Below, piece after piece: positions 13,912 through 36,473 of a DNA stretch of 64,000 bases. The translations under genes were made by a program, and so were the position numbers. This stretch comes from Eubacterium sp. (GTDB taxonomy: Bacteria; Bacillota; Clostridia; Lachnospirales; Lachnospiraceae). The stretch spans positions 62,001 through 126,000 of the forward strand of contig JAFVAQ010000027.1 of assembly GCA_017480495.1 (NCBI GenBank). Direction: 5' to 3'. Under the pieces are notes generated by a model. The model was not told where the DNA came from. It worked only from the letters and a program-made list of their open reading frames with translations, and made no database searches. The stretch's first letter is position 1. Every line of letters starts with the position of its first letter.

Positions 13912-14736
13912 ATGGATAAAGTAATTGAAATGCAGCACATCAATAAGAAATACTATGAAGGTATGGAAAATGAGCTGCATATACTTCATGATATAGATCT
14001 TACTGTAAATGATGGCGAGTTTGTGGCGCTAGTAGGTGAGTCGGGTTCTGGTAAATCAACAATGATGAATATTATCGGAGCATTGGATAGACCTACCTCT
14101 GGTCAGTATTATCTGGCGGGAGAAGATATATCTACACTCGATGATGACAGACTCAGTGAGATTAGAAATAAAGAAATAGGCTTCGTATTCCAGAGTGCAT
14201 ATATGATACCTCGTATATCTGCTGTAGAGAACGTTGAGGTGCCACTTATGTATGCTGGAATGTCAAGAGGCGAGAGACGAGATAAAGCTATGTACCTCCT
14301 GGAAATGGTTGGCATGGGCGAGAGATATAAGCACAAGGCAAATGAGCTATCAGGTGGACAGAATCAGAGAGTTGCTATTGCAAGAGCCCTTGCTTGTGAC
14401 CCTTCAATTATTCTGGCGGATGAGCCAACAGGTGCGCTGGATTCTAAGACCGGACACCTTATTATGGATATTTTCCATAGACTGCATGATGAACAGAAGA
14501 AAACAATCGTTCTGATCACACACAGTAAGGAACTGGCGGCGGAGACAGAAAGAATAATTACTATTAGTGATGGTTATATTATAAAGGATGAAAGAAATGA
14601 GCTATTCCAGATGAGAAGGGATGCTCGAAAGATGGATCCAAATGCTGACAGGATGAGTCTTGAAACATCATCTTCGGATGAATCAGATGTTATCCTGAAC
14701 GAAGTTGGTGAGCCTGAGGAAGGAGGTGCTGAGTAA
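13912..14736 (+). CDS. ABC exporter ATP-binding subunit (MacB/LolD type)
   Basis: This 274-residue ATPase has GESGSGKST (Walker A), FQSAYMIPRISAVENVEVPL (Q-loop with the MacB-family pattern), LSGGQNQRVAIARAL (signature), ILADEPTGALD (Walker B) and an H-loop in LITHSKE. It powers the downstream FtsX-like permease. A frame opens at a GTG at 13903, but AAAAGG is only 2 bases from it and 11 from the ATG at 13912, so 13912 is preferred. The C-terminal 45 residues are an acidic extension beyond the usual ATPase. Its stop overlaps the permease start by one base. Confidence 0.94.
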   Translation: MDKVIEMQHINKKYYEGMENELHILHDIDLTVNDGEFVALVGESGSGKSTMMNIIGALDRPTSGQYYLAGEDISTLDDDRLSEIRNKEIGFVFQSAYMIPRISAVENVEVPLMYAGMSRGERRDKAMYLLEMVGMGERYKHKANELSGGQNQRVAIARALACDPSIILADEPTGALDSKTGHLIMDIFHRLHDEQKKTIVLITHSKELAAETERIITISDGYIIKDERNELFQMRRDARKMDPNADRMSLETSSSDESDVILNEVGEPEEGGAE

Positions 14737-16037
14737 TGACATTTTACGAAAACCTCCGACTAGCGTGGTCATGTGTTAAATCTAATAAGATGAGATCGAT
14801 ACTTACTATGTTGGGTATCATTATCGGTATCAGTGCCGTTATTACGATTTCAACTCTTGGTTCCTCACTTAGACAGACAATATCAGGTACTTATTCTGAT
14901 ATGATGACAACAAATCAGCTGGCCTTTATGTGGGTTAATACAAGTGATGATGACTCGGTGGAGGCTCCAGTTAAGTTTGATCTCGAGAATTGCTATGAGT
15001 TCAAAGAGGCATTTACGGGCCAGATATCAGCTGTAATGTTGGATCATTATTTAGGTGTGGGCACCTGCTATAATGGTGATGAGAAGAAGATGGTAAACAT
15101 CGTGGGCTATAGCGAAGGATACTGCGAGTCCAATAAGTATGAGCTTACGATGGGAAGAGATGTTGATTTCCAGGATAGCTTTGAAACGAGAAAGGTGTGC
15201 GTTGTATCTGAAAACTTTGTAAAATACGCTCTTGACGATATTTCTAATCCAATAGGCCAGAAGGTTGAGTTCGAGACTTCTGATGGGACTATAGTTTCTG
15301 CATATATCATTGGCGTTTATAAGATGGATAACAAGCAGTCTAGCCTTACAGGTCAGGCTAAAGTAGCAGAAAAGGATAAAGTTACAGATGTTATCATACC
15401 AGTTACTTATTCATGGGATATCGCTGAGGTTCCTGAAAACAAGAGATTTACTGAACCGCTATATATAAGTGGAGCTCCAGGCGTAGACGGTACTGCCCTG
15501 AAAGAGAATGTTACAAAGTATTTTGAGTCTAAAAAAGAAGCGGGCAGTCCGTATTTCCTCTATATTCAGAGTTTGGAAGAACAGCTTAAAACTATTAGTA
15601 AGGTAATGGATGTTATTACTATAGTTATTTCTATTATTGCTGCTATATCACTTATCGTTGGTGGTATCGGTGTTATGAATATCATGCTGGTATCCGTTGT
15701 TGAACGTACTAAGGAAATTGGTATAAGAAAAGCTCTTGGTGCTAAGAACAAAGTTATTGAAGCACAGTTCCTGGTGGAATCAGTTCTGATATGTGCAATT
15801 GGTGGTGTTGTAGGAATACTTTTAGGACTTCTGAATGGTGGAATAATAGCAATCGTTGCTAAGGTGATTGTGTCACAATCTGAGGATTTTTCATTTATAT
15901 CTGTAAATGTTAGTCCACCTATCATGATGATTGTTATTTCGTTCCTGTTCTCTACACTTGTAGGTGTTGTATTTGGTCTATATCCTGCTCGTAGAGCAGC
16001 GAGATTATCACCTATCGATGCACTTAGATATGAATAA
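14736..16037 (+). CDS. ABC exporter permease (MacB/FtsX family)
   Basis: This 433-residue protein has one N-terminal membrane helix (about residues 22-40, MLGIIIGISAVITIS), a large extracytoplasmic MacB-type domain (about 45-280) and three C-terminal helices forming the FtsX domain, with the conserved RTKEIGIRKALGA loop and the PARRAARLSPIDALRYE tail. With the adaptor and ATPase it forms a MacAB-like exporter for peptides, antibiotics or lipoproteins; the cargo is unknown. Translation is coupled to the ATPase (TAATG overlap). Confidence 0.94.
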   Translation: MTFYENLRLAWSCVKSNKMRSILTMLGIIIGISAVITISTLGSSLRQTISGTYSDMMTTNQLAFMWVNTSDDDSVEAPVKFDLENCYEFKEAFTGQISAVMLDHYLGVGTCYNGDEKKMVNIVGYSEGYCESNKYELTMGRDVDFQDSFETRKVCVVSENFVKYALDDISNPIGQKVEFETSDGTIVSAYIIGVYKMDNKQSSLTGQAKVAEKDKVTDVIIPVTYSWDIAEVPENKRFTEPLYISGAPGVDGTALKENVTKYFESKKEAGSPYFLYIQSLEEQLKTISKVMDVITIVISIIAAISLIVGGIGVMNIMLVSVVERTKEIGIRKALGAKNKVIEAQFLVESVLICAIGGVVGILLGLLNGGIIAIVAKVIVSQSEDFSFISVNVSPPIMMIVISFLFSTLVGVVFGLYPARRAARLSPIDALRYE

Positions 16038-16061
16038 TAATTACTTGATGATATTTACTTG

Positions 16062-16090
16062 TTGACATATACATTAGTGTATTGTATTTT
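16062..16090 (+). promoter_or_regulatory. Promoter of the acyl carrier protein gene
   Basis: TTGACA at 16062-16067 and TATTTT at 16085-16090 are 17 bp apart, 64 bp before the preferred ATG. Confidence 0.6.
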
Positions 16091-16153
16091 ATGTCTTGTA
16101 AATAATACTAATCAGTATTTCCAGATGGAGTATATTTTAAAGGAGACATGATT

Positions 16154-16390
16154 ATGATATTTGATAAGCTTGTAGAGATAATGATGGACCAATTGTCTAT
16201 TCAGCCACAGGATATAACAGTGGATACAGCATTTAAGGATGATTTGGCACTGGATTCACTTGATCTGTATGACCTTATTATGGCACTTGAAGATGAGTTT
16301 AACATCGAGCTGCCGGCAGAGAGACAGGAAGAAATTGTGACGGTAGACGATCTGATAAGAGTTCTTAAAGAACTTGGAGTAGAAGAGTAA
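16154..16390 (+). CDS. acpP: Acyl carrier protein
   Basis: This 78-residue acidic protein has the ACP fold pattern and the phosphopantetheine attachment motif LDSLDLYDL with Ser35. ACP carries growing acyl chains as thioesters. AGGAG at 16141-16145 is only 2 bases from an ATG at 16148 but 8 from the ATG at 16154, so 16154 is chosen. A perfect terminator follows 12 bases after the stop, so it is probably monocistronic. An acyl-ACP thioesterase gene comes next, which fits, though no other fatty acid synthesis gene is near; this could be a second, specialised ACP. Confidence 0.9.
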   Translation: MIFDKLVEIMMDQLSIQPQDITVDTAFKDDLALDSLDLYDLIMALEDEFNIELPAERQEEIVTVDDLIRVLKELGVEE

Positions 16391-16402
16391 TATATAAATG
16401 AG

Positions 16403-16429
16403 CGAGCTACTGAAAGGTAGCTCGTTTTT
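16403..16429 (+). terminator. Rho-independent terminator after the ACP gene
   Basis: CGAGCTAC at 16403-16410 pairs perfectly with GTAGCTCG at 16417-16424 across a 6-base loop and is followed by TTTTT. It lies inside the frame open upstream of the thioesterase, which argues for the later start of that gene. Confidence 0.85.
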
Positions 16430-16484
16430 ATGTGAAAAGAAAAATGTGGAGCATTTTCAAAAGATAAATATAGGTGGAGAAAAT

Positions 16485-17279
16485 ATGTATTCATTTGAAA
16501 CTAGAGTGAGATATAGCGAGCTTGCGGAGGATAGAAGCGCCAGCCTCGTATCAATAATTAATTATTTTCAGGACTGTTGTACATTTGAATCTGAGGATGA
16601 AGAGATAGGACTAGATTGGCTGGCGGAACATGACACAGCATGGATGCTGAAGGGCTGGCAGATTCATATAATAAGAAGCCCAAGGTATTGTGAGAGAGTT
16701 AAGGTCACTACATGGGCTTGCGGCTTTAAGTATTTTGTTGGTAAAAGAAGCTTCACAATAACTACGCTGGAGGGAGAAGTTCTTGTGTATGCTATGTCAG
16801 ACTGGGCATATATGAATGTGAAGAAACAGCTTCCTGAGAAGAACGTACCCCAGAAGGAGCTGGATGTTTATGGAATGGCTGTTCCGATTGAAGAGAGATT
16901 CGAAGAATTTGGAATAAAAGAATTTGTCGAAGCTGACTCAGATAGAACGGTACTTAAAGGAAAGATACAGATTCCGGATGCGAAAGATCCAGATGTTACA
17001 GTTGAGGATTCTCTGGATATGAATGCAGTAACTCCTATACTTGTTACAGCGGATAATCTCGACACTAACCATCACGTCAACAACGCTCAGTATGTCGCAC
17101 TTGCCAAGTCGGTCATACCAGAGGAGATTGATGTAAGACAATTCCGGGCGGAGATAAAGAAACAGTCTGTCCTTGGTGATGTCATTTATCCCGTTCTCTA
17201 CCGAGAAAAATCTCGCCTCGTCGTCGTACTAAACGACGAGAACCGCACCCCAAAACTAATCGCCGAATTCCACATCTAA
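16485..17279 (+). CDS. Acyl-ACP thioesterase
   Basis: This 264-residue enzyme has two hotdog domains and belongs to the FatA/FatB-like family, which releases fatty acids from acyl-ACP. The second domain holds the family motif LDTNHHVNNAQYV, with the catalytic-region Asn and His. The frame opens at 16398, but the ACP terminator occupies that stretch and GGTGGAG sits 5 bases before the ATG at 16485, giving MYSFETRVRYSE, the usual start. In Lachnospiraceae such enzymes may supply free or branched acids. It follows the ACP gene. Confidence 0.9.
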   Translation: MYSFETRVRYSELAEDRSASLVSIINYFQDCCTFESEDEEIGLDWLAEHDTAWMLKGWQIHIIRSPRYCERVKVTTWACGFKYFVGKRSFTITTLEGEVLVYAMSDWAYMNVKKQLPEKNVPQKELDVYGMAVPIEERFEEFGIKEFVEADSDRTVLKGKIQIPDAKDPDVTVEDSLDMNAVTPILVTADNLDTNHHVNNAQYVALAKSVIPEEIDVRQFRAEIKKQSVLGDVIYPVLYREKSRLVVVLNDENRTPKLIAEFHI

Positions 17280-17287
17280 TGAGTAAA

Positions 17288-17349
17288 TATGCAAATAGGG
17301 ACGTTTCTTATTTGCATATGTGCAAAAGAGAACCGTCCCTATTTGCATA
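17288..17349. repeat. Palindromic REP-like element
   Basis: TATGCAAATAGGGACG at 17288-17303 is perfectly repeated in inverse at 17334-17349, giving a 62-bp element with 16-bp arms. The core GGGACGTTTCTTATTT recurs at 26024-26039. Such GGGACG palindromes resemble the REP sequences mobilised by REP-associated tyrosine transposases, but no such gene is in the window. Confidence 0.65.
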
Positions 17350-17353
17350 AGAA

Positions 17354-17384
17354 AAGTCCCTTGGGAGTGATTCCCAAGGGACTT
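17354..17384 (-). terminator. Terminator of the cellobiose phosphorylase gene
   Basis: AAGTCCCTTGGGA at 17354-17366 pairs perfectly with TCCCAAGGGACTT at 17372-17384 (13 bp, 5-base loop). On the minus strand it lies 26 bp past the stop and is followed by TTTTC; it may also stop rightward transcripts. Confidence 0.85.
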
Positions 17385-17409
17385 CTGTTATTATTGTATA
17401 ACGTGATAA

Positions 17410-19860
17410 TTAACCGAGTGTTACAACAACCTTATGAGAAGCACCGTCTCCAGCAACTGGAATAACGTTTCCGTCTACGGCATTTCCGTCAATTGTAAGT
17501 GATACAACACCCTTGCATACATGGTTAGGATTCTTAACCTCAATCTCGTATGTATCTCCACGGAACTGACGAGTAGCTGTGAAGCCATCCCATGCAGCTG
17601 GAATAGAAGGATCAACCTTCAGACCATCCCAGTCAGGTGTGATACCAAGGATGTACTGGCTGATTGCTACGAAGTTCCAAGCAGCAGTACCTGTAAGCCA
17701 TGAGTTTTTAGCTTCGCCCTGACGTCCTGCATCTTTACCAGCAACCATCTGTGCATATACATATGGCTCTGTTCTATGAAGATCTGATATATCCTCAAGG
17801 AATGCAGGAGCTATACGTGAATACCAGTCAAATGCCTTATCGCCCTGTCCTGCGTAAGCGGCAGCACAGATCATCCATGCATTGTTGTGGCAGAATACAC
17901 CAGCGTTCTCTTTATAACCAGCTGGGTATGTTGAAATCTCACCATACTCAATGTAATACTTTGTAAATGCTGGGTTGTTAAGTACAAGACCATACTTGCA
18001 ACCGAGCTTATCTTCAACAGCGTTGATAACCTTCTCAGCCCAACCGTCTTCTTTACCAATGTCTGACATGATACCGAAGCCCTGTGGCTCGATGAAGATC
18101 TGTCCTTCTTCGCATTCCTTAGAACCAACCTTACGTCCAAGGTCATCGTATGCTCTGATGAACCAGTCGCCATCCCAACCATACTGCTTGATGATATCCT
18201 TCATCTTATCTATCTCAGCCTGAGCTGCAGCAGCCTCAGCCTCATCGCCCTTGTACTTGCAAAGTGCAACGTAATCAGGACCTGCATAAGTGAAGAGTGT
18301 TGCTACGAATATTGACTCAGCAACATCTGAGAAGCCCTTATCACCATACTTAGGTGATGTATATGTCTGGAAGCTTTCTCCTGGTGTATCTGACCAGCAT
18401 GAAAGGTTCAGACAGTCATTCCAGTCAGCTCTCATTGAAAGTGGAAGTCCGTGAGGACCTGTTTCCTTAGCGACCTTGTAGAAGGACTGCTTCAGGTGAT
18501 GCATCATTGGCTGTGCAAGTGACTCATCATTTCTATATGGAACCATCTCATCAAGGATTGAGTAATCACCAGTCTCCTTGATGTATGCTGCTGTTGACAT
18601 GATCATCCACATTGGATCATCTGAGAAGTTACCGCCGAGTGTATCATTTCCCTTCTTAGTAAGTGGCTGATACTGATGGAAGCATCCACCATCTTCGAAC
18701 TGTGTAGCAGCCAGATCAAGGATTCTCTCACGAGCTCTATCTGGAATCTGATGAACGAATCCGAGAAGATCCTGGTTAGAATCACGGAATCCCATTCCAC
18801 GTCCGATACCTGACTCGAAGTATGAAGCACTTCTTGACATATTGAATGTAACCATACACTGATACTGATTCCAAATGTTAACCATACGGTCAACCTTCTC
18901 ATCAGGAGTCTTAACTGCGTATTTAGAGAGGAGGTCATCCCACATCTTACGATTCTCTTCAAATGCTGCGTCAACCTTCTCAGCTGTGTCGAACTTAGCA
19001 ATCATTTCATAAGCCTTAGACTTATTCATGCTACCATCTGCATTCCACTTGTCAGCTCCGTTCTCAACATATCCAAGCATGAATACGAGAACTTTCTCTT
19101 CGCCTGGTGCAAGAGAAATCTTAAGTGAATGAGAAGCAATAGGTCCCCATCCATCAGCCTTAGAATTGTTTGACTTGTTAGCAAATACAGCGTCAGGTCT
19201 GTCAAATCCATTGTACAGTCCCATGAAGCTTTCTTTATCGCAATCATATCCATCGATATCAGCATTTACTGTATAGAATGCGAAGTGATCACGACGCTCT
19301 TTGTACTCTGTCTTGTGGAAGAGTGTTGATCCCTCAACCTCAACCTCACCTGTGTTGAAGTTTCTTTGGAAGTTTGTTGAGTCATCCTCAGCATTCCATA
19401 GACACCACTCAAGGAATGAGAAAAGTGTGAAGTTCTTTGGTGAAGTTCCTTCGTTCTTAAGAACTACTTTCTGAATCTCAGCATTCTGGCCCTGTGGTAC
19501 AAAGAATGTAACCTCAGCCTTCAGCTCTTTCTTCTTACCAGTTATGATGGTGTATCCCATACCATGACGGCACTGATAGAAATCAAGCTCTGTCTTAACT
19601 GGAGACCAACCTGGATTCCAAACAGTATCCTCATCATTAATGTAGAAATAACGTCCACCCATATCTACAGGTATATTGTTATAACGATAACGTGTGATTC
19701 TTCTTAGACGAGCATCCTTATAGAAATGATATCCTCCTGCTGTGTTGGAGATAAGTGAGAAGAACCCTTCTGTTCCAAGGTAGTTAATCCATGGATAAGG
19801 TGTTCTTGGGGATGTGATGACATACTCTCTGGCGTCATCGTCGAAGTAACCGAATTTCAT
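17410..19860 (-). CDS. cbp: Cellobiose phosphorylase (GH94)
   Basis: This 816-residue cytosolic enzyme splits cellobiose with phosphate into glucose and alpha-glucose-1-phosphate, conserving energy during cellulose use. Family traits are the N-terminal beta-sandwich ([26 protein letters not shown]), the (alpha/alpha)6 barrel and the general-acid Asp482 in [36 protein letters not shown] is a hallmark region of cellobiose phosphorylases. Length is typical. It stands alone with its own promoter and terminator and no adjacent sugar transporter. A cellodextrin phosphorylase is less likely given length. Confidence 0.94.
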
Positions 19861-31586: not shown

Positions 31587-31616
31587 ATATATGGATATAA
31601 ATAAAAGACAGTATGG

Positions 31617-31647
31617 AAACCGGTGAGGTGAACCTCACCGGTTTTTT
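31617..31647 (+). terminator. murA terminator
   Basis: AAACCGGTGAGGT (31617-31629) pairs perfectly with ACCTCACCGGTTT (31632-31644) and continues into T residues. Confidence 0.9.
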
Positions 31648-31677
31648 ATGTGCAAATCCGAAAAACACAAAACAAAC

Positions 31678-31706
31678 TTGAAAAGCACTTATAATTAGTA
31701 CATAAT
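31678..31706 (+). promoter_or_regulatory. Promoter of the sigma/WYL island
   Basis: TTGAAA 31678-31683 and CATAAT 31701-31706 are 17 bp apart, about 20 bp before the start codon at 31726. This is a clear vegetative-type promoter just before the accessory gene block. Confidence 0.6.
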
Positions 31707-31725
31707 CGTTTTGGAGGAGGATGTT

Positions 31726-33420
31726 ATGTCTGAGAAGGTGATGTCTGAAAAAGAAATAAATGAACTCATTATTCTGGCTAAAAAGGGTGATAACAAAGCC
31801 TGGGAAAGCCTGACATTAGAATATACGGATTATATCAAAAGATTGGCACGGAAAAAATTGGATAATCTGAATCTCAGTTCCAGGAAAGAAATAGAGAAGG
31901 ATTTATTTCAAGTGGGCTGGATGGGGTTTGCTGATGCTGTAAAAAGATATACTCCAGGTGGAGCGTCCTTAAAAACGTATGCCTGGTACGATATAAATGG
32001 AAGAATGAATAAACAGCTTGATTTCGTTCTTAATCCATTAGGAATCCCACGGGAAGTGAGACAAGAAGATACAGATAAAAATATCGAGAGACATTATCTG
32101 GATGGTGATGATGAAATTTTGCTGGATGAAAAGTCTTCTAAGGAGTTTTGTGAGAGGTACTATGCTGATGAGGAATCCTCGGATGATTTTTCATTAGAGG
32201 TTCAGGAGCAGCCAGGTAACTACAGTCCTGAGAGAGTGACATTGCAGATGCTTGAGACTCTAAAGATAATGACGGATGACGAACACAAAGTCTCCACAGA
32301 AGAATTCAGAAGACTACTTAGATTATATCGCACTGCACGACATAAGAATAGCGGCGAATTAAAAGGCGATAGAACAATCAATAAGAATCTGGCGGAAATA
32401 ATTTCAGAGTTGAATCCAAGTGTTTATTCAGATGATAATAGTTCGAAATATAGAATCAAATACGATGGATACAAGGAGAACTATCTTAGTGATAAGCTTA
32501 AGATGAGAAAAGATAATCCGCTGGTAATAGACCCAAATTCTGCTCCGACGTTAAGTGGACTGTCCTATGTACATTTGTTTGATAATAAGGAACTGGATGA
32601 GCTGATAGAAATCATCTGCCTCACAGATATTCTGTCTGAAGATGAAAAGAATACTTTGGTTAATAAGGTGATTGGCACAGCCAGTGTTCATTATAGTACG
32701 CCATTTAGTGATGGTGAGCATATGCTATTTAATCCAAGGTCAATACACGGTAGATTTTGTGGTAGAGACGATGGGGATAGGGGTAAACTTTCTGATAATC
32801 TAAGATTGATACAGGAAGCCATAAATAATCTGGGTAAGATTAGTTTTAGGTTTAATCGATATACAGAGGAGCATGAGATGGTTCCTGCATCCCATCATAT
32901 TCATCGTCTAAGTCCTTATCATTTGGTAGTGTATCATGACAATTACTATTGTATAGGACTCAAGGATGGCGATTCCCGTATATGGCATTATAGGGTAGAC
33001 CTAATGTCTGATATACAAATTATCCGAAATGATGAAGGTGAGATTATTCCGATAAATCTCAGTGATTTTGATGGACTTCCTATAGCGAATTCCAGTTGGG
33101 ATCCGCAGCGCTACATGTCCGAGCATCTTAATATGGCGTATGATTCTCCTGCACGAGTATTCCTTAAAATAAAAAAGAATGATTATACATTTATCCATGA
33201 TTGGTTTGGGGATAATTATAAAAAACTGGATAAAGTACCTGACATTGTGGAGGGGGTCCAGCTGGATATCAGTAAGTATGATATTGTGGAGGTTGTTACG
33301 TCCCCAAGTATGATAGTGTACTGGGCTCTTCAGTATGCAGAGAAGGTTGAGGTTCTGAATGAGGATATAAGAGAGAAAATGAGAAAAACAATTAGGGGAC
33401 TGGATAAAAAATATGATTAA
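31726..33420 (+). CDS. Predicted sigma-70 region 2 fused to an HTH-WYL-WCX regulator
   Basis: This 564-residue protein combines two regulatory modules. Residues about 9-112 read as sigma-70 region 2: LAKKGDNKAWESLT, DLFQVGWMGFADAVKRY and SLKTYAWYDINGRMNKQL follow regions 2.1-2.4. Residues about 172-245 resemble the winged-helix part of WYL regulators. Residues 286-318 match their linker, 362-432 the WYL domain (LSPYHLVVYHDNYYCIG, HYRVDLMSDI) and 475-555 the WCX domain. No sigma region 4 is visible. WYL domains bind nucleic-acid-derived ligands and often repress defence genes. The start ATG lies 5 bases after GGAGGAGG. It leads an island of unknown genes and overlaps the next by 8 bp. The assignment is by eye. 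Confidence 0.75.
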   Translation: MSEKVMSEKEINELIILAKKGDNKAWESLTLEYTDYIKRLARKKLDNLNLSSRKEIEKDLFQVGWMGFADAVKRYTPGGASLKTYAWYDINGRMNKQLDFVLNPLGIPREVRQEDTDKNIERHYLDGDDEILLDEKSSKEFCERYYADEESSDDFSLEVQEQPGNYSPERVTLQMLETLKIMTDDEHKVSTEEFRRLLRLYRTARHKNSGELKGDRTINKNLAEIISELNPSVYSDDNSSKYRIKYDGYKENYLSDKLKMRKDNPLVIDPNSAPTLSGLSYVHLFDNKELDELIEIICLTDILSEDEKNTLVNKVIGTASVHYSTPFSDGEHMLFNPRSIHGRFCGRDDGDRGKLSDNLRLIQEAINNLGKISFRFNRYTEEHEMVPASHHIHRLSPYHLVVYHDNYYCIGLKDGDSRIWHYRVDLMSDIQIIRNDEGEIIPINLSDFDGLPIANSSWDPQRYMSEHLNMAYDSPARVFLKIKKNDYTFIHDWFGDNYKKLDKVPDIVEGVQLDISKYDIVEVVTSPSMIVYWALQYAEKVEVLNEDIREKMRKTIRGLDKKYD

Positions 33421-34312
33421 AAGTGATAGTGATGAAAAAGCCTGGGAATTTTTTATGGATTGTTATAAGATAAAATCTCCAAAAATTAGTCGGGGGTGCA
33501 AGGTCGGAAAATGGAAATATGTGGATGATTCTGAATCTCAGAAATCTATAGATGTATCCGGAGAGATATGTTTTAATCTTAGGCTTAAGGACAGTAGGAG
33601 TACCACATTTTATGGCAGTATTTTATGTGATGGGAAAAGCCTCAGTCAATGTGGCGAGGCTTTTCAGGAAAAGTTTTTGGAATTAAATAATATACTTGGG
33701 TACCTGCAGACCTCACCTTACAACATATGCATACTTCCGAAACCTGGTGGACTTAATAATATCAAGAAAGGAATCGGAAACGATAGATTTGATACTTACC
33801 TGTGGGCTTTGTACAGATATTATAAAGGTGAGAAAGCATTTATAATAAATGGGTATGCGGTAGCTATGAGTATAGTCAATCGCAAGATACTATGTGACTT
33901 TTTGGATGAGTATAAGTCGACGGGCTCAGACTCAGACAGTGATAATGCTATGGCCTCGCTACTTAGTCTATGCTCGGATCTATATAGTTTTGTTAGGACT
34001 AAAGAGGGGGAAGACGCTAGTCAAACTAAAGAATATAAGCTTATAAAAGACCTGATAAACAATGGAATAAAACCGATTGCTAGTAAGTCTGATTTTCGTA
34101 GATATATAGAATTTGCAATTAGATTCTGGGAGCTGAGGAGAAAAGGGATTTACAGCCATTTAAAAGAAACGCATAAAGAACATTTTGAGAAGGTATGTAA
34201 AAAGTATGAGAAGGATTTTGAAGAGACGAACGAGAAAATAAAAAAAATTAACAAACTTTTGAATACAAATATTTTTGATGATTCGGAAGCAAATTCATTT
34301 AAAGAAAAATAA
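33413..34312 (+). CDS. Unknown cytosolic protein coupled to the sigma/WYL gene
   Basis: I do not recognise this 299-residue protein. It has no signal peptide or membrane helix. The N-terminal half is mixed (SRGCKVGKWKYVDDSES, then a YGSILCDGKSLSQCGEAFQEK segment) and the C-terminal 80 residues are helical and charged, probably a coiled coil (FEKVCKKYEKDFEETNEKIKKINKLL). LPKPGGLNNIKKGIGNDRFDTYLWALYRYYKG may be a conserved core. Its start overlaps the regulator stop by 8 bp, so the two are probably translated together; a terminator follows. Confidence 0.75.
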   Translation: MIKSDSDEKAWEFFMDCYKIKSPKISRGCKVGKWKYVDDSESQKSIDVSGEICFNLRLKDSRSTTFYGSILCDGKSLSQCGEAFQEKFLELNNILGYLQTSPYNICILPKPGGLNNIKKGIGNDRFDTYLWALYRYYKGEKAFIINGYAVAMSIVNRKILCDFLDEYKSTGSDSDSDNAMASLLSLCSDLYSFVRTKEGEDASQTKEYKLIKDLINNGIKPIASKSDFRRYIEFAIRFWELRRKGIYSHLKETHKEHFEKVCKKYEKDFEETNEKIKKINKLLNTNIFDDSEANSFKEK

Positions 34313-34357
34313 CCTATTACAAAAATTTGTAAGTAGAGAAAACCATAATAATAATGA

Positions 34358-34391
34358 GAACGTTGTGAAACGATTTCGCAGCGTTCTTTTT
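34358..34391 (+). terminator. Terminator within the island
   Basis: GAACGTTGTGAAA (34358-34370) pairs along its whole length, with two G-T pairs, with TTTCGCAGCGTTC (34374-34386), followed by TTTTTAATT. It separates the regulator pair from the nuclease pair. Confidence 0.8.
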
Positions 34392-34435
34392 AATTGCGTT
34401 AAAATTCAATTTCCCTAAAGGAGGAGGTGAGAATC

Positions 34436-34558
34436 ATGGGAATCCCAGATGAGATTATCGAGGAATATGACATCGAAACTGAGGCTGAGATGCTGGACTT
34501 CTGGTACGACGAAGTACTTTGCAGCATGGATGATGAGGATAAAGGTGAAGTATTCTGA
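34436..34558 (+). CDS. 40-residue acidic small protein
   Basis: A strong GGAGGAGG site precedes an ATG at 34436 for 40 codons (begins MGIPDEIIEEYDIETE, ends DKGEVF). About a third of its residues are Asp or Glu. Such acidic small proteins can be DNA mimics, antitoxins or leader peptides; the sequence alone does not decide. It lies between a terminator and the nuclease-like gene, 54 bp before the latter. Confidence 0.55.
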   Translation: MGIPDEIIEEYDIETEAEMLDFWYDEVLCSMDDEDKGEVF

Positions 34559-34612
34559 AAAACTAATTCCGAAGAAACTAATGATTTGTAAATGAAGGAA
34601 AGGAATAAAATT

Positions 34613-35440
34613 ATGAAGTTAGAAATAAGAATTAACAATGTAAATGGATTTAATAATACAGTGATAGAAGATGATAGAAAGCACTACATCTATCGAAGCT
34701 ACAAGGACAGACTTTTTGAAATACTGCATGATGCCAAGGATGATATTCCAGATATTTGGTGGCTGCAGGAAATAAGGCCAGGCGTAAAGGAGCATCAGAT
34801 ATTAAATGAGCTTAAGCTTAAGGCTGAAATGCTGGGGCTTACTCTTGTAACAACTGTAGATGAGGCAGACTTTGAAAAACATCCTAAGAGTTTGCTAAAT
34901 GTGCTACTCATAAAAGATGTTAATGAATTTGAGGTTCTAAAAACTCAGAAAGAGATTAGCCTTTATAGAAGGATTAATTATATTCGGGTTAATTTTAAAT
35001 CAGCCCCGAATAGAGATTTCTATATACTCCACATACACGCGCCGCAAATTGACTATTTCCCAGGACATTCTATAAATGATGGATATGTAAGAAGGAGAAA
35101 ATATCTGGAAAGGGAGTTCTATCGGGCTCTCAAATATGAAGTGAGTCAGTTGGTAGAACAAAAGAAAAATGTAATCGTGTTGGGGGATTTTAATAAGTCA
35201 TTACAGTCAGATGATCTAAAGGACCTTATGAAGTCAGGCTTAACGGTGGTGTCAGGTGGAATGGAACGAACATATTATGGACCGGGGAACAATCGAAGTA
35301 AGTCTATAGATCACATTCTTATGGCAAACAACCTTGCTGATGATGAATCATTTAAGTTAATCAGAAGTGTGACTGATAGAAATGTTGTGACAAATAGGCT
35401 TACGGATCATGCAACAATAAAGGTAGGTGTAAATGTATGA
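34613..35440 (+). CDS. Endonuclease/exonuclease/phosphatase-family protein
   Basis: This 275-residue protein has the DNase I-like fold motifs in order: WWLQEI (metal-binding Glu), YILHIHAPQ, VLGDFNKS (Asp/Asn), SIDHILM and LTDHATI (catalytic Asp-His). It should hydrolyse phosphodiester or phosphate ester bonds; DNA, RNA, phosphoinositide or other substrates are all possible in this family. No signal peptide is seen, so it is probably cytosolic. AAGGAAAGG precedes the ATG at 34613. Its stop overlaps the next start (ATGA), so the two products probably act together. Confidence 0.85.
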   Translation: MKLEIRINNVNGFNNTVIEDDRKHYIYRSYKDRLFEILHDAKDDIPDIWWLQEIRPGVKEHQILNELKLKAEMLGLTLVTTVDEADFEKHPKSLLNVLLIKDVNEFEVLKTQKEISLYRRINYIRVNFKSAPNRDFYILHIHAPQIDYFPGHSINDGYVRRRKYLEREFYRALKYEVSQLVEQKKNVIVLGDFNKSLQSDDLKDLMKSGLTVVSGGMERTYYGPGNNRSKSIDHILMANNLADDESFKLIRSVTDRNVVTNRLTDHATIKVGVNV

Positions 35441-36309
35441 GCAAATCTGTTATAGAGAATGGGCGGAATGACAGACTGGATGAAATGGCACTTGAGATGA
35501 TACGGTTCCTAAAAAAGTGGGGGTTGTGGCGTGATGCCACAATCCTTACAAATGGTCATATGTATAGTTATGGCAAAAAAGATAGTGATGCTCTTGATGG
35601 AATAGAGAATGTGAGTTATGCCTGTGATGTTAATCCTGTGGAATATACAAGAGGATTAGTCGAAAGACCAGATGGAAGCAAAGAATGGGAGAGTCTGGCA
35701 AATCCTGAACATCATTTTGATTTGATATATGAAGGACCATTGGGCACGCTTCTTAATTATCATTTATATGAGCCGGATATTAAAGGTGTAAGCGAAGAAG
35801 GATGGGAGACGATTTTTGGAGAAACAGACATTTTGCAGGATTATATAGCGAGCCAGCTTGAAGTAAGTAGTGTGCAGGAGTTAGGAAGAAAAATGTGGTT
35901 AGATATTTTTGATAACTCTGAGATATCGGTCTGGGATCCTTTGGAATATGATACATATGATGAGTATTTAGAGCTAACATATGGCGACTATGATGAGGCG
36001 GATAAAATGACAGCAACATCTATGTTTGAAACTTATGATGAATACAAATCGGCTAGAGAGTATGGCGTAGATTATTTCAATGATTATTATACAGATGACG
36101 TTCAGGCAAAATGGGAAGATGAAATCATGAAAGCCAGATTGTTCTTTATGAAGAACGACTGTAGATGGTGGTATGGAAGCCTGGGGATTCAAGATTATTT
36201 TAATCAGGTAGCATGGATAGTCAAACGAGAGTTTGATGGCATTTTTGAAAAATATGATTTCTGGTATGAGTTGGATTTTGAATCATCTCTCAGCTGCTAC
36301 CGACTTTGA
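35437..36309 (+). CDS. Unknown acidic protein coupled to the EEP nuclease gene
   Basis: I do not recognise this 290-residue protein. It is very acidic and rich in Tyr and Asp (for example YDEADKMTATSMFETYDEYKS and repeated DYxDDY-like runs), with no membrane segment. The 4-bp ATGA overlap with the nuclease-like gene indicates coupled translation, so it could be an inhibitor, immunity or regulatory partner. It ends the island, about 40 bp before the metG promoter. Confidence 0.75.
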   Translation: MSKSVIENGRNDRLDEMALEMIRFLKKWGLWRDATILTNGHMYSYGKKDSDALDGIENVSYACDVNPVEYTRGLVERPDGSKEWESLANPEHHFDLIYEGPLGTLLNYHLYEPDIKGVSEEGWETIFGETDILQDYIASQLEVSSVQELGRKMWLDIFDNSEISVWDPLEYDTYDEYLELTYGDYDEADKMTATSMFETYDEYKSAREYGVDYFNDYYTDDVQAKWEDEIMKARLFFMKNDCRWWYGSLGIQDYFNQVAWIVKREFDGIFEKYDFWYELDFESSLSCYRL

Positions 36310-36349
36310 GGTCGCCTTTATACCGTCTTTGGGGTTAGCTTTTGTTTCC

Positions 36350-36378
36350 TTGTCACATTCCTGGTATTGTGGTAAAAT
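36350..36378 (+). promoter_or_regulatory. metG promoter
   Basis: TTGTCA 36350-36355 and TAAAAT 36373-36378 are 17 bp apart. About 90 bases of leader follow; no T-box signature (no AGGGTGGNACCGCG) is present. Confidence 0.6.
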
Positions 36379-36473
36379 AACCCTTAGCGCTTTATGTACT
36401 TAACCCATGTAACGATAAGTTTCATTCGCGTAAGGAACATAGTGTAAATACATAAACGGAGGGATACACCGAA

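Follow-up and report, generated by a model that had tools for sequence, protein, structure and literature searches.

We analysed a stretch of 64,000 nucleotides from a Eubacterium sp. genome (contig JAFVAQ010000027.1, positions 62,001 to 126,000; here called the window), in which an accessory island of about 4.7 kb (31653..36383, boundaries approximate) lies between murA and metG. The island is led by G1 (31726..33420), a gene for a hybrid regulator of 564 residues in which a sigma-70 region 2 is joined to a WYL regulator of presumed HTH-WYL-WCX layout (HTH, helix-turn-helix). In related islands carrying this gene, the cargo genes are preceded by a promoter of fixed geometry in which a palindrome, CTTCAAAATTTTGAAG, is followed after exactly 11 bp by CATAATA, without a -35 box. 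On balance, we favour the reading that G1 works as a single-chain alternative sigma factor, gated by a ligand, that drives a private regulon. The island genes and promoter elements of the window described below lie on the forward strand; the window genome comprises 1.89 Mb in 41 contigs and is 65.6% complete.

The sigma region 2 and WYL fusion

Profile searches matched both halves of G1, as a sequence-only reading of this DNA had proposed. With G1 alone, the WYL domain (PF13280) was found at E 2.1e-7 and passes the Pfam cut-off, Sigma70_r2 (PF04542) was found at E 2.5e-4 with 21.2 bits, just under the cut-off of 24, and the TIGR02937 sigma-70 model gave E 2.7e-5, also under its cut-off. Residues 3-148 matched a PHROG sigma factor at E 6.4e-11. 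A profile of 26 N-termini, those of the window protein and 25 relatives, had as its best PDB match 1l0o_C, a 'sigma factor' chain which we take to be sigma-F, at E 2.3e-11; there were 84 matches at E <= 1, and the 60 shown were all sigma factors. FliA was also among the best solved matches and one match was listed as WhiG, while the Sigma70_ECF match to G1 was weak (0.066). The Pfam region 2 cut-off was passed by three of the nine family members scanned (L025, L023 and L009), and in L025, whose chain also contains WYL, the match extends over positions 1-69 of 71 at 6.9e-10. These profile matches show that G1 carries a true sigma-70 region 2 joined to a WYL regulator.

Region 2 occupies residues ~6-112 (31741..32061) with the core DLFQVGWMGFADAVKRYTPGGASLKTYAWYDINGRM, as placed by the N-termini profile and the PHROG match. 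It is followed by a degenerate linker (32062..32220), at the place of which the relative L028 has a region-4-like segment. The presumed winged HTH and linker of the WYL regulator form a block conserved in the 26 sequences (32221..32580), and we infer the winged HTH from this position, the conserved block and the palindromic operator. The WYL domain and a WCX-like C-terminal extension (32797..33405) are covered by PF13280 and by the PADLOC WYL model, which spans residues 355-558 at E 3.3e-16. The full HTH-WYL-WCX architecture of the earlier proposal thus stood above cut-off for its WYL part; the HTH had no significant Pfam match and Pfam WCX had no match in G1. WCX matches were sub-threshold in L018, L020, L021 and L025, and above cut-off only in three WYL-only relatives scanned.

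No region 4 was matched in G1 by Pfam or TIGRFAM-type models, nor by Pfam in seven relatives scanned (L004, L009, L018, L020, L021, L023 and L025). In L028, TIGR02937 matches the first 180 residues over positions 6-174 with 46.1 bits, above its curated cut-off of 42.9, and a WYL domain follows, so that in this protein WYL is preceded by a sigma segment running from region 2 to region 4; its region 4 taken on its own is weak (Pfam region 4, E 0.09; best PDB match, E 0.093). Judging from these sequences, the family members other than L028 seem to have lost region 4 or to retain it in eroded form. Because region 4 was not recognised, G1 is not a standard sigma factor, and the combination of region 2 of the extracytoplasmic function (ECF) type with region 4, which marks ECF sigma factors, was likewise not recognised in its sequence. 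By its domain G1 belongs to the WYL class, and it may still work like a sigma factor through region 2.

The sigma-WYL loci studied number 29, of which 28 (L002-L029) came from one contig scan and one (L030) from a family sample of 299 genomes; they derive from Lachnospiraceae and other Clostridia. The 25 aligned relatives were chosen as full length, leaving out L002 (near-identical), L013 and L024 (contig end) and L027 (N-terminus missing). Full-length G1 was found in the family sample only in the window genome and in G135, and in a phylum sample of 299 genomes (E 1e-25) only in the window genome, with two others matching the WYL part alone; the gene is therefore rare in these samples. The loci are related by descent, so their promoter sites are not independent, and many of them are contigs of metagenome-assembled genomes. 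In agreement with the sequence-only reading, which knew of no such described family, we found no description of the sigma-WYL fusion in the open-access literature (titles and abstract starts, with most subscription papers outside that search). Section 8 of a paper on CARF and WYL domains lists WYL fusions, none of them with a sigma domain (PMC4012209).

A palindrome and a CATAAT element at fixed spacing

A first scan gave 35 rows of a palindrome with a CATAAT-like element, with a gap of exactly 11 bp in 24 of them and scattered gaps in the other 11. A matrix built from 33 seeds and run on 418 kb found 64 hits under a loose threshold, while reversed DNA gave no hit; 45 distinct sites scored at least 25. 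As the seeds had been picked for CATAATA or CATATTA and match by construction, the test was rerun from the palindrome alone. At up to two mismatches, the 29 loci contained 48 palindromes, with at least one in 23 of the loci, whereas 216 kb of other loci gave four. Of the 48, 39 have CATAAT (36), CATATT (2) or CATAAA (1) on one strand at offset 12, and none has TATAAT there; CATAAT occurred at most once at any other single offset. The sites precede different gene families and are found on both strands in L017, always with the one exact spacing.

A -35 box was absent from these promoters, with 42 of the 45 sites matching TTGACA at no more than two of six positions at 16-18 bp spacing and the other three at three of six, which makes an ordinary sigma-A promoter unlikely. 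If CATAAT is the -10 element, the palindrome is centred near -31.5, where the -35 box is usually found.

The association with G1 also held in whole genomes. The 20 gene-bearing genomes searched were those of the window, of G135 and of 18 of the 28 loci L002-L029. The pattern occurred in 18 of them with 35 hits, of which 32 lie by coordinates within the G1-bearing stretch, and the reversed control gave none. Two of the three remaining hits stand, by reading, before cargo-like genes (L095 and L102), and the third (G368:C176) is beside genes without a known family. Among the 299 family genomes 13 had a hit, one of them G135; the other 12 of 298 had one hit each and may be due to chance, since the reversed control gave six. 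In the extra genomes, matrix scores were 44 for L137 (in G252, with TATAAT) and 23 for L127 (in G127), and L138 (in G368) had two weak sites. Neither inspection by eye nor a scan for perfect palindromes revealed an operator in the WYL-only relatives L031 and L032.

In the window, the operator is a palindrome with seven of eight pairs, TTACAAAAATTTGTAA (34317..34332), followed exactly 11 bp further by the -10 element CATAAT (34344..34349), the spacing seen at the consensus sites of related islands. This site (34317-34349) is a variant of the consensus and lies before the nuclease operon. The palindrome with its -10 element is unique in the window and was met in none of 100 shuffles. The variant TTACAAAAATTTGTAA-N11-CATAAT is shared by the window genome (G000) and L002 and is unique in each at up to three mismatches; these two are the hosts without a consensus hit among the 20. 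The proposal that the block is a regulated system was therefore supported, a dedicated promoter standing before the nuclease operon and before cargo genes of related islands.

G1 itself is preceded by a sigma-A-like promoter (TTGAAA, 17 bp, CATAAT; 31678..31706) that agrees with 10 of 12 consensus positions and is weak as evidence, because the scan gave 23 such sites against 20.3 expected. No island operator was found before G1 by reading the upstream sequence or by the matrix scan. A gene overlaps the G1 stop by 4-14 bases in the window (G2), L002, L003, L005, L018, L022 and L023, and in 14 other loci the promoter lies 29-166 bp after G1.

Many sites are accompanied by a hairpin. The test covered 47 sites (the 45 consensus sites, the window site and two of L020, less L029 at a contig end), each compared with shuffles at p <= 0.02. 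In class A (12 of 47), the stem gains significantly from the -10 region, which serves as its 5' arm, and a run of five T follows downstream in 10 of the 12; as this stem uses the -10 region, only read-through RNA from upstream could form it and so be stopped there. In class B (11 of 47, the window included), the hairpin lies wholly after the start, and the remaining 24 sites fall in neither class. The terminator-like hairpin of the window (34356..34391) has 15 pairs and then a T run and starts at the expected transcription start (z -3.0); three of 200 shuffles fold as well. This and the other class B hairpins could yield an RNA of about 35 nucleotides or attenuate the genes behind them. A class B-type hairpin at the expected start precedes G4 and cluster c5 genes in several islands. 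An earlier candidate, that leaders hide the Shine-Dalgarno sequence in read-through RNA, was borne out for a subset only and was replaced by the hairpin classes; the Shine-Dalgarno sequence was on average unpaired at 0.40 in read-through against 0.51 in initiated RNA (27 short leaders; no start was found at 3 of 48 sites).

The island, its cargo and its slot

The block between murA and metG is an insertion. Among 61 genomes of the genus murA was detected in 56, and 30 murA loci were returned and examined. In 25 of these metG follows within 300 bp, in two (the window and its sister L060) G1 follows, and in three (L061, L072 and L073) neither gene lies within 1.5 kb. L062, with a murA 97% identical to that of the window, is an empty site. 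These loci confirm the accessory island of the sequence-only reading; conservation of the genes at this place in all relatives in a housekeeping role, named there as a possible objection, was not seen, the island being present in 2 of the 30 loci. The left edge of the island is common to the window and its sister (L060/L002), and the right edge was set by comparison with L062.

The gap between murA and metG (31587-36473 in the window) is a variable slot, with other sequences in three of the 30 genus loci. By reading, the slot of L061 holds a signal-peptidase/pilus-like stretch and those of L072 and L073 an arabinofuranosidase-like gene. Left of G1 in L060/L002, a signal-peptidase-like open reading frame (ORF; by reading) is cut off at the island edge; a pilus-like locus in the sister species may thus have given way to the island. 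In DNA identity between the window and L002, G1, G3 and G4 reach 98% and the promoter-leader region 99.2%, against 94.8% for G2, 94.8% for murA and 95.4% for metG, a pattern consistent with most of the island having been exchanged recently or being under strong constraint. G2 (33413-34312; L002:8674-9573), at only 94.8%, is at the level of the flanking housekeeping genes, the rest of the island being at least 98% identical. In L028, the island sits between two copies of a gene pair of clusters c34 and c35 (L028:5848-7346 and 15405-17522), which may be the ends of a mobile element. As to a phage origin, the exact promoter motif was not matched in IMG/VR, none of 35 pattern stretches there was confirmed as a relative of G1, and tblastn against phage records gave no match; among plasmid records, two had partial WYL-type matches.

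All five ORFs that the sequence-only reading had placed in the block are present, including the ATGA overlap of the last two. G2 (33413..34312) overlaps the G1 stop and has no assigned family; its only two Pfam rows at E <= 1 are both at 0.026, below cut-off. Its place is filled in L018 (Pfam, 6.5e-16) and L023 (by cluster with members of L019 and L028) by a DUF6994-like group, and G2 may be a diverged member of this group. Between G2 and the DUF6994-like proteins BLASTP was not significant and hhalign gave a probability of 1.4%. In the first round with a hidden Markov model (HMM) of five island proteins on 397 proteins, the L002 ortholog scored 4.9e-5, G2 0.0016 and an unrelated G4 protein 0.011, which puts the G2 hit near noise; later rounds hold its ortholog in the seed. 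The 40-residue acidic ORF (34437..34558) has a strong Shine-Dalgarno sequence, is 99.2% identical in DNA to L002 and has no family match.

G3 (34613..35440, alternative start 34592) is an enzyme of the endonuclease/exonuclease/phosphatase (EEP) superfamily. The expected DNase I-fold protein was confirmed by Exo_endo_phos (PF03372) at E 2.3e-9, and the sequence contains LQEI, GDFN, DHI and TDH, which we take to be motifs with roles as in the EEP family. G4 (35437..36309), joined to G3 by the ATGA overlap, is an acidic protein of no assigned family. No convincing family was found for G2 and G4, PHROG included, and PDB searches with G3 and with a G4 alignment gave no hit; G2, the 40-residue ORF and G4 thus keep the unassigned status they had been given.

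Co-occurrence, which had been suggested as a check for these proteins as a set, was found for G4 and G1. Relatives of G4 are present in 13 of the 29 sigma-WYL loci and in 3 of the 299 family genomes, two of these being the only two with full-length G1. G2 and G3 have a tblastn relative only in the near-identical L002, and G4 is therefore unlikely to be merely an inhibitor of G3.

The cargo of related islands is varied. Recurrent families are the Metallophos clusters c2 and c3 (one L005 member of each confirmed by Pfam), the NT5C cluster c4 (one member confirmed) and clusters c5 and c6 without a family. HAD_SAK_2 (8.5e-21), KptA (3.5e-45), a NrtR-type NUDIX protein, AAA_33 and GNAT were found as single cases, and an EEP-like fragment in L020 fell below Pfam cut-offs. 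KptA, HAD_SAK_2, AAA_33, Metallophos and NT5C are spread over different islands, and the EEP enzyme is the only one of the window. A metallophosphatase at L005:14928-15749 has a PHROG RNA ligase row at E 2.1e-11 that covers only 88 of 737 profile positions, and no RtcB or RtcA model was among the Pfam rows of the cargo scanned. Cluster c32 (L019:13167-14069 and L028:10329-11213) resembles a fragment of the DNA gyrase/topoisomerase IV subunit A, its L019 member matching PF00521 at E 3.3e-8, above cut-off. In L019, the cargo genes are followed at 14073-17000 by proteins that, by reading, look like leucine-rich-repeat proteins (cluster c7).

The sequence-only reading had suggested, as an idea, a phage-defence nuclease with an inhibitor or sensor. 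More broadly, the islands might be inducible sets of nucleases and phosphatases deployed on infection, which is possible but which we regard as doubtful. WYL domains are linked to defence systems (PMC4012209) and the cargo is sparse and swappable; two CRISPR-type rows were also seen, Cas_TM1802 in one cargo protein (Pfam, E 0.0014, below cut-off) and a weak Cas10 row (E 0.006), the latter in a PADLOC scan of 10 cargo proteins. Against this, PADLOC gave only WYL models among the five window proteins, and these and the 10 cargo proteins had no solid match to known defence effector genes. The cargo resembles end-healing and nucleotide enzymes, and its predicted families point to nucleic-acid end processing, repair or stress, or nucleotide signalling more than to proven defence. 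With G4 in 13 of 29 loci and G3 shared only with L002, the pairing of nuclease and inhibitor was not supported.

Proposed mechanism, alternatives and known systems

If G1 acts as a sigma factor, its region 2 would bind core RNA polymerase and read CATAAT as the -10 element, and its winged HTH, in a dimer organised by WYL and WCX, would bind the palindrome near -31.5, at the usual seat of sigma region 4. A ligand of the WYL domain, derived from a nucleotide or nucleic acid, would probably switch G1 on. In the window, G1 would drive the 40-residue ORF, G3 and G4 from 34317-34349, with G1 and G2 transcribed from an ordinary promoter. The island promoter stands before changing cargo in relatives, several of the genes encoding phosphoesterases and RNA-end enzymes. 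The island would then form a private regulon whose units are swappable and insulated, with a probable role in nucleic-acid damage or stress. A wider formulation, on which we consider the case evenly balanced, is that G1 represents a new sigma class in which -35 recognition by region 4 is replaced by the DNA-binding domain of an allosteric sensor, serving a set of cargo units that can be exchanged and that bring their own copies of the matching promoter, in many cases together with a hairpin. In such a class, sensing, operator choice and promoter opening would be combined in one polypeptide, a part of the same evenly balanced proposal.

Several observations weigh against the reading of G1 as a ligand-gated sigma factor. 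The winged HTH had no significant Pfam match, and HTH_16 rows overlap region 2 instead. The window site has diverged (matrix score of 15.8 against at least 25 for the 45 consensus sites), and its assignment as a G1 site rests on layout, from a single variant. CATAAT fits the sigma-A element at five of six positions and stands in the sigma-A-like promoter of G1 itself, and one site outside the 20 hosts, in G252, has TATAAT. No site was seen in the islands of L013, L014, L018 and L027; L013 and L014 end at G1, as does L024, L027 begins inside G1, and the genome of L018 has a site on another contig. Class B hairpins in the leader should stop the transcripts of their own promoter unless overcome. 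G086 has G4 on a 9.4-kb contig (L135) without G1 or the motif, which weighs against a strict link of G4 to G1; this contig also has HAD_SAK_2 (Pfam, 2.2e-7) and relatives of the metallophosphatase clusters, and an EEP-looking ORF on it was not confirmed by Pfam. Finally, much of the cargo has no recognisable function. At L020:520 and L020:3333 (matrix score 16-18), CATAATA is kept and the upstream operator is different, as if operator and HTH had changed together.

By analogy with PafBC and DriD, G1 could instead act on the sigma-A holoenzyme. It would then be a WYL activator at a palindrome that replaces the -35 box and would recruit sigma-A; CATAAT would be read by region 2 of sigma-A, and that of G1 would be a docking piece or a relic. 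PafBC inserts between promoter DNA and domain 4 of sigma-A and is triggered by single-stranded DNA on its WYL domains (PMC11804915), and DriD sites overlap the -35 element (PMC12340889). The five-of-six fit of CATAAT to TATAAT and its presence in the promoter of G1 also suit this alternative. We consider it rather unlikely, however, since region 2 is conserved in the 25 aligned relatives (chosen as full length), where a relic would be expected to drift, L028 keeps region 4, and the island -10 element at the fixed offset is CATAAT and never TATAAT. The use of CATAAT without TATAAT is unusual for sigma-A.

A repressor that blocks the promoter from the palindrome until a ligand releases it is very unlikely. 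The palindrome does overlap the -35 position, and PMC4012209 cites negative regulation of a CRISPR-Cas system by a WYL protein, but 42 of the 45 sites have no -35 box for basal transcription and a sigma domain is fused to the same protein. That the palindrome and the -10 element are unrelated sequences brought together by chance or shared ancestry is hardly credible, because, although the islands are related by descent and their sites not independent, the genes behind these sites belong to different families, the sites occur in both orientations in L017, their spacing is exactly the same throughout, the reversed controls (matrix scan and host genomes) gave no hit, and the palindrome-first scan contradicts it.

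If G1 does act as a ligand-gated sigma factor, 'sigma adaptation' would exist as a covalent, evolved state, a sigma factor could change its -35 specificity by domain replacement, and the fusion would provide a compact transcription unit that a ligand can switch. It would also open a route to the function of G4, DUF6994 and clusters c5 and c6 in Lachnospiraceae of rumen and gut. With so simple a promoter rule, the regulated genes of a genome can be predicted.

Known one-chain sigma factors add a regulator while retaining both promoter-reading regions; those of the ECF type with C-terminal extensions keep region 4 for the -35 box. G1 is like ECF41 with SnoaL_2, ECF42 with TPR and CorE in combining a sigma factor and a fused regulatory domain in one chain (PMC8103513); unlike these, G1 and the seven relatives scanned with Pfam have no region-4 match and have a WYL regulator with its own operator instead. 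The Rtc/RtcR RNA repair operons likewise place a ligand-sensing regulator beside RNA-end enzymes, which the islands parallel with HAD_SAK_2 and KptA; RtcR, however, is sigma-54 dependent (PMC4012209), and no RtcB or RtcA model was found in the island cargo scanned.

The closest parallels are found among WYL activators. Mycobacterial PafBC has the HTH-WYL-WCX layout presumed for G1; it is an activator that takes the -35 side of the promoter and is activated by single-stranded DNA (PMC11804915), but it is a heterodimer that works with sigma-A, whereas G1 has region 2 in its own chain and a symmetric palindrome as operator. DriD of Caulobacter resembles the proposed G1 in that it is a WYL homodimer and its site overlaps the -35 element; it differs in using the sigma-73 holoenzyme and contacting polymerase through a three-helix bundle, and the parts of that account consulted mention no fused sigma domain (PMC12340889). 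Known WYL activators work with the housekeeping sigma factor, whereas the G1 family appears to merge the WYL activator and the sigma factor.

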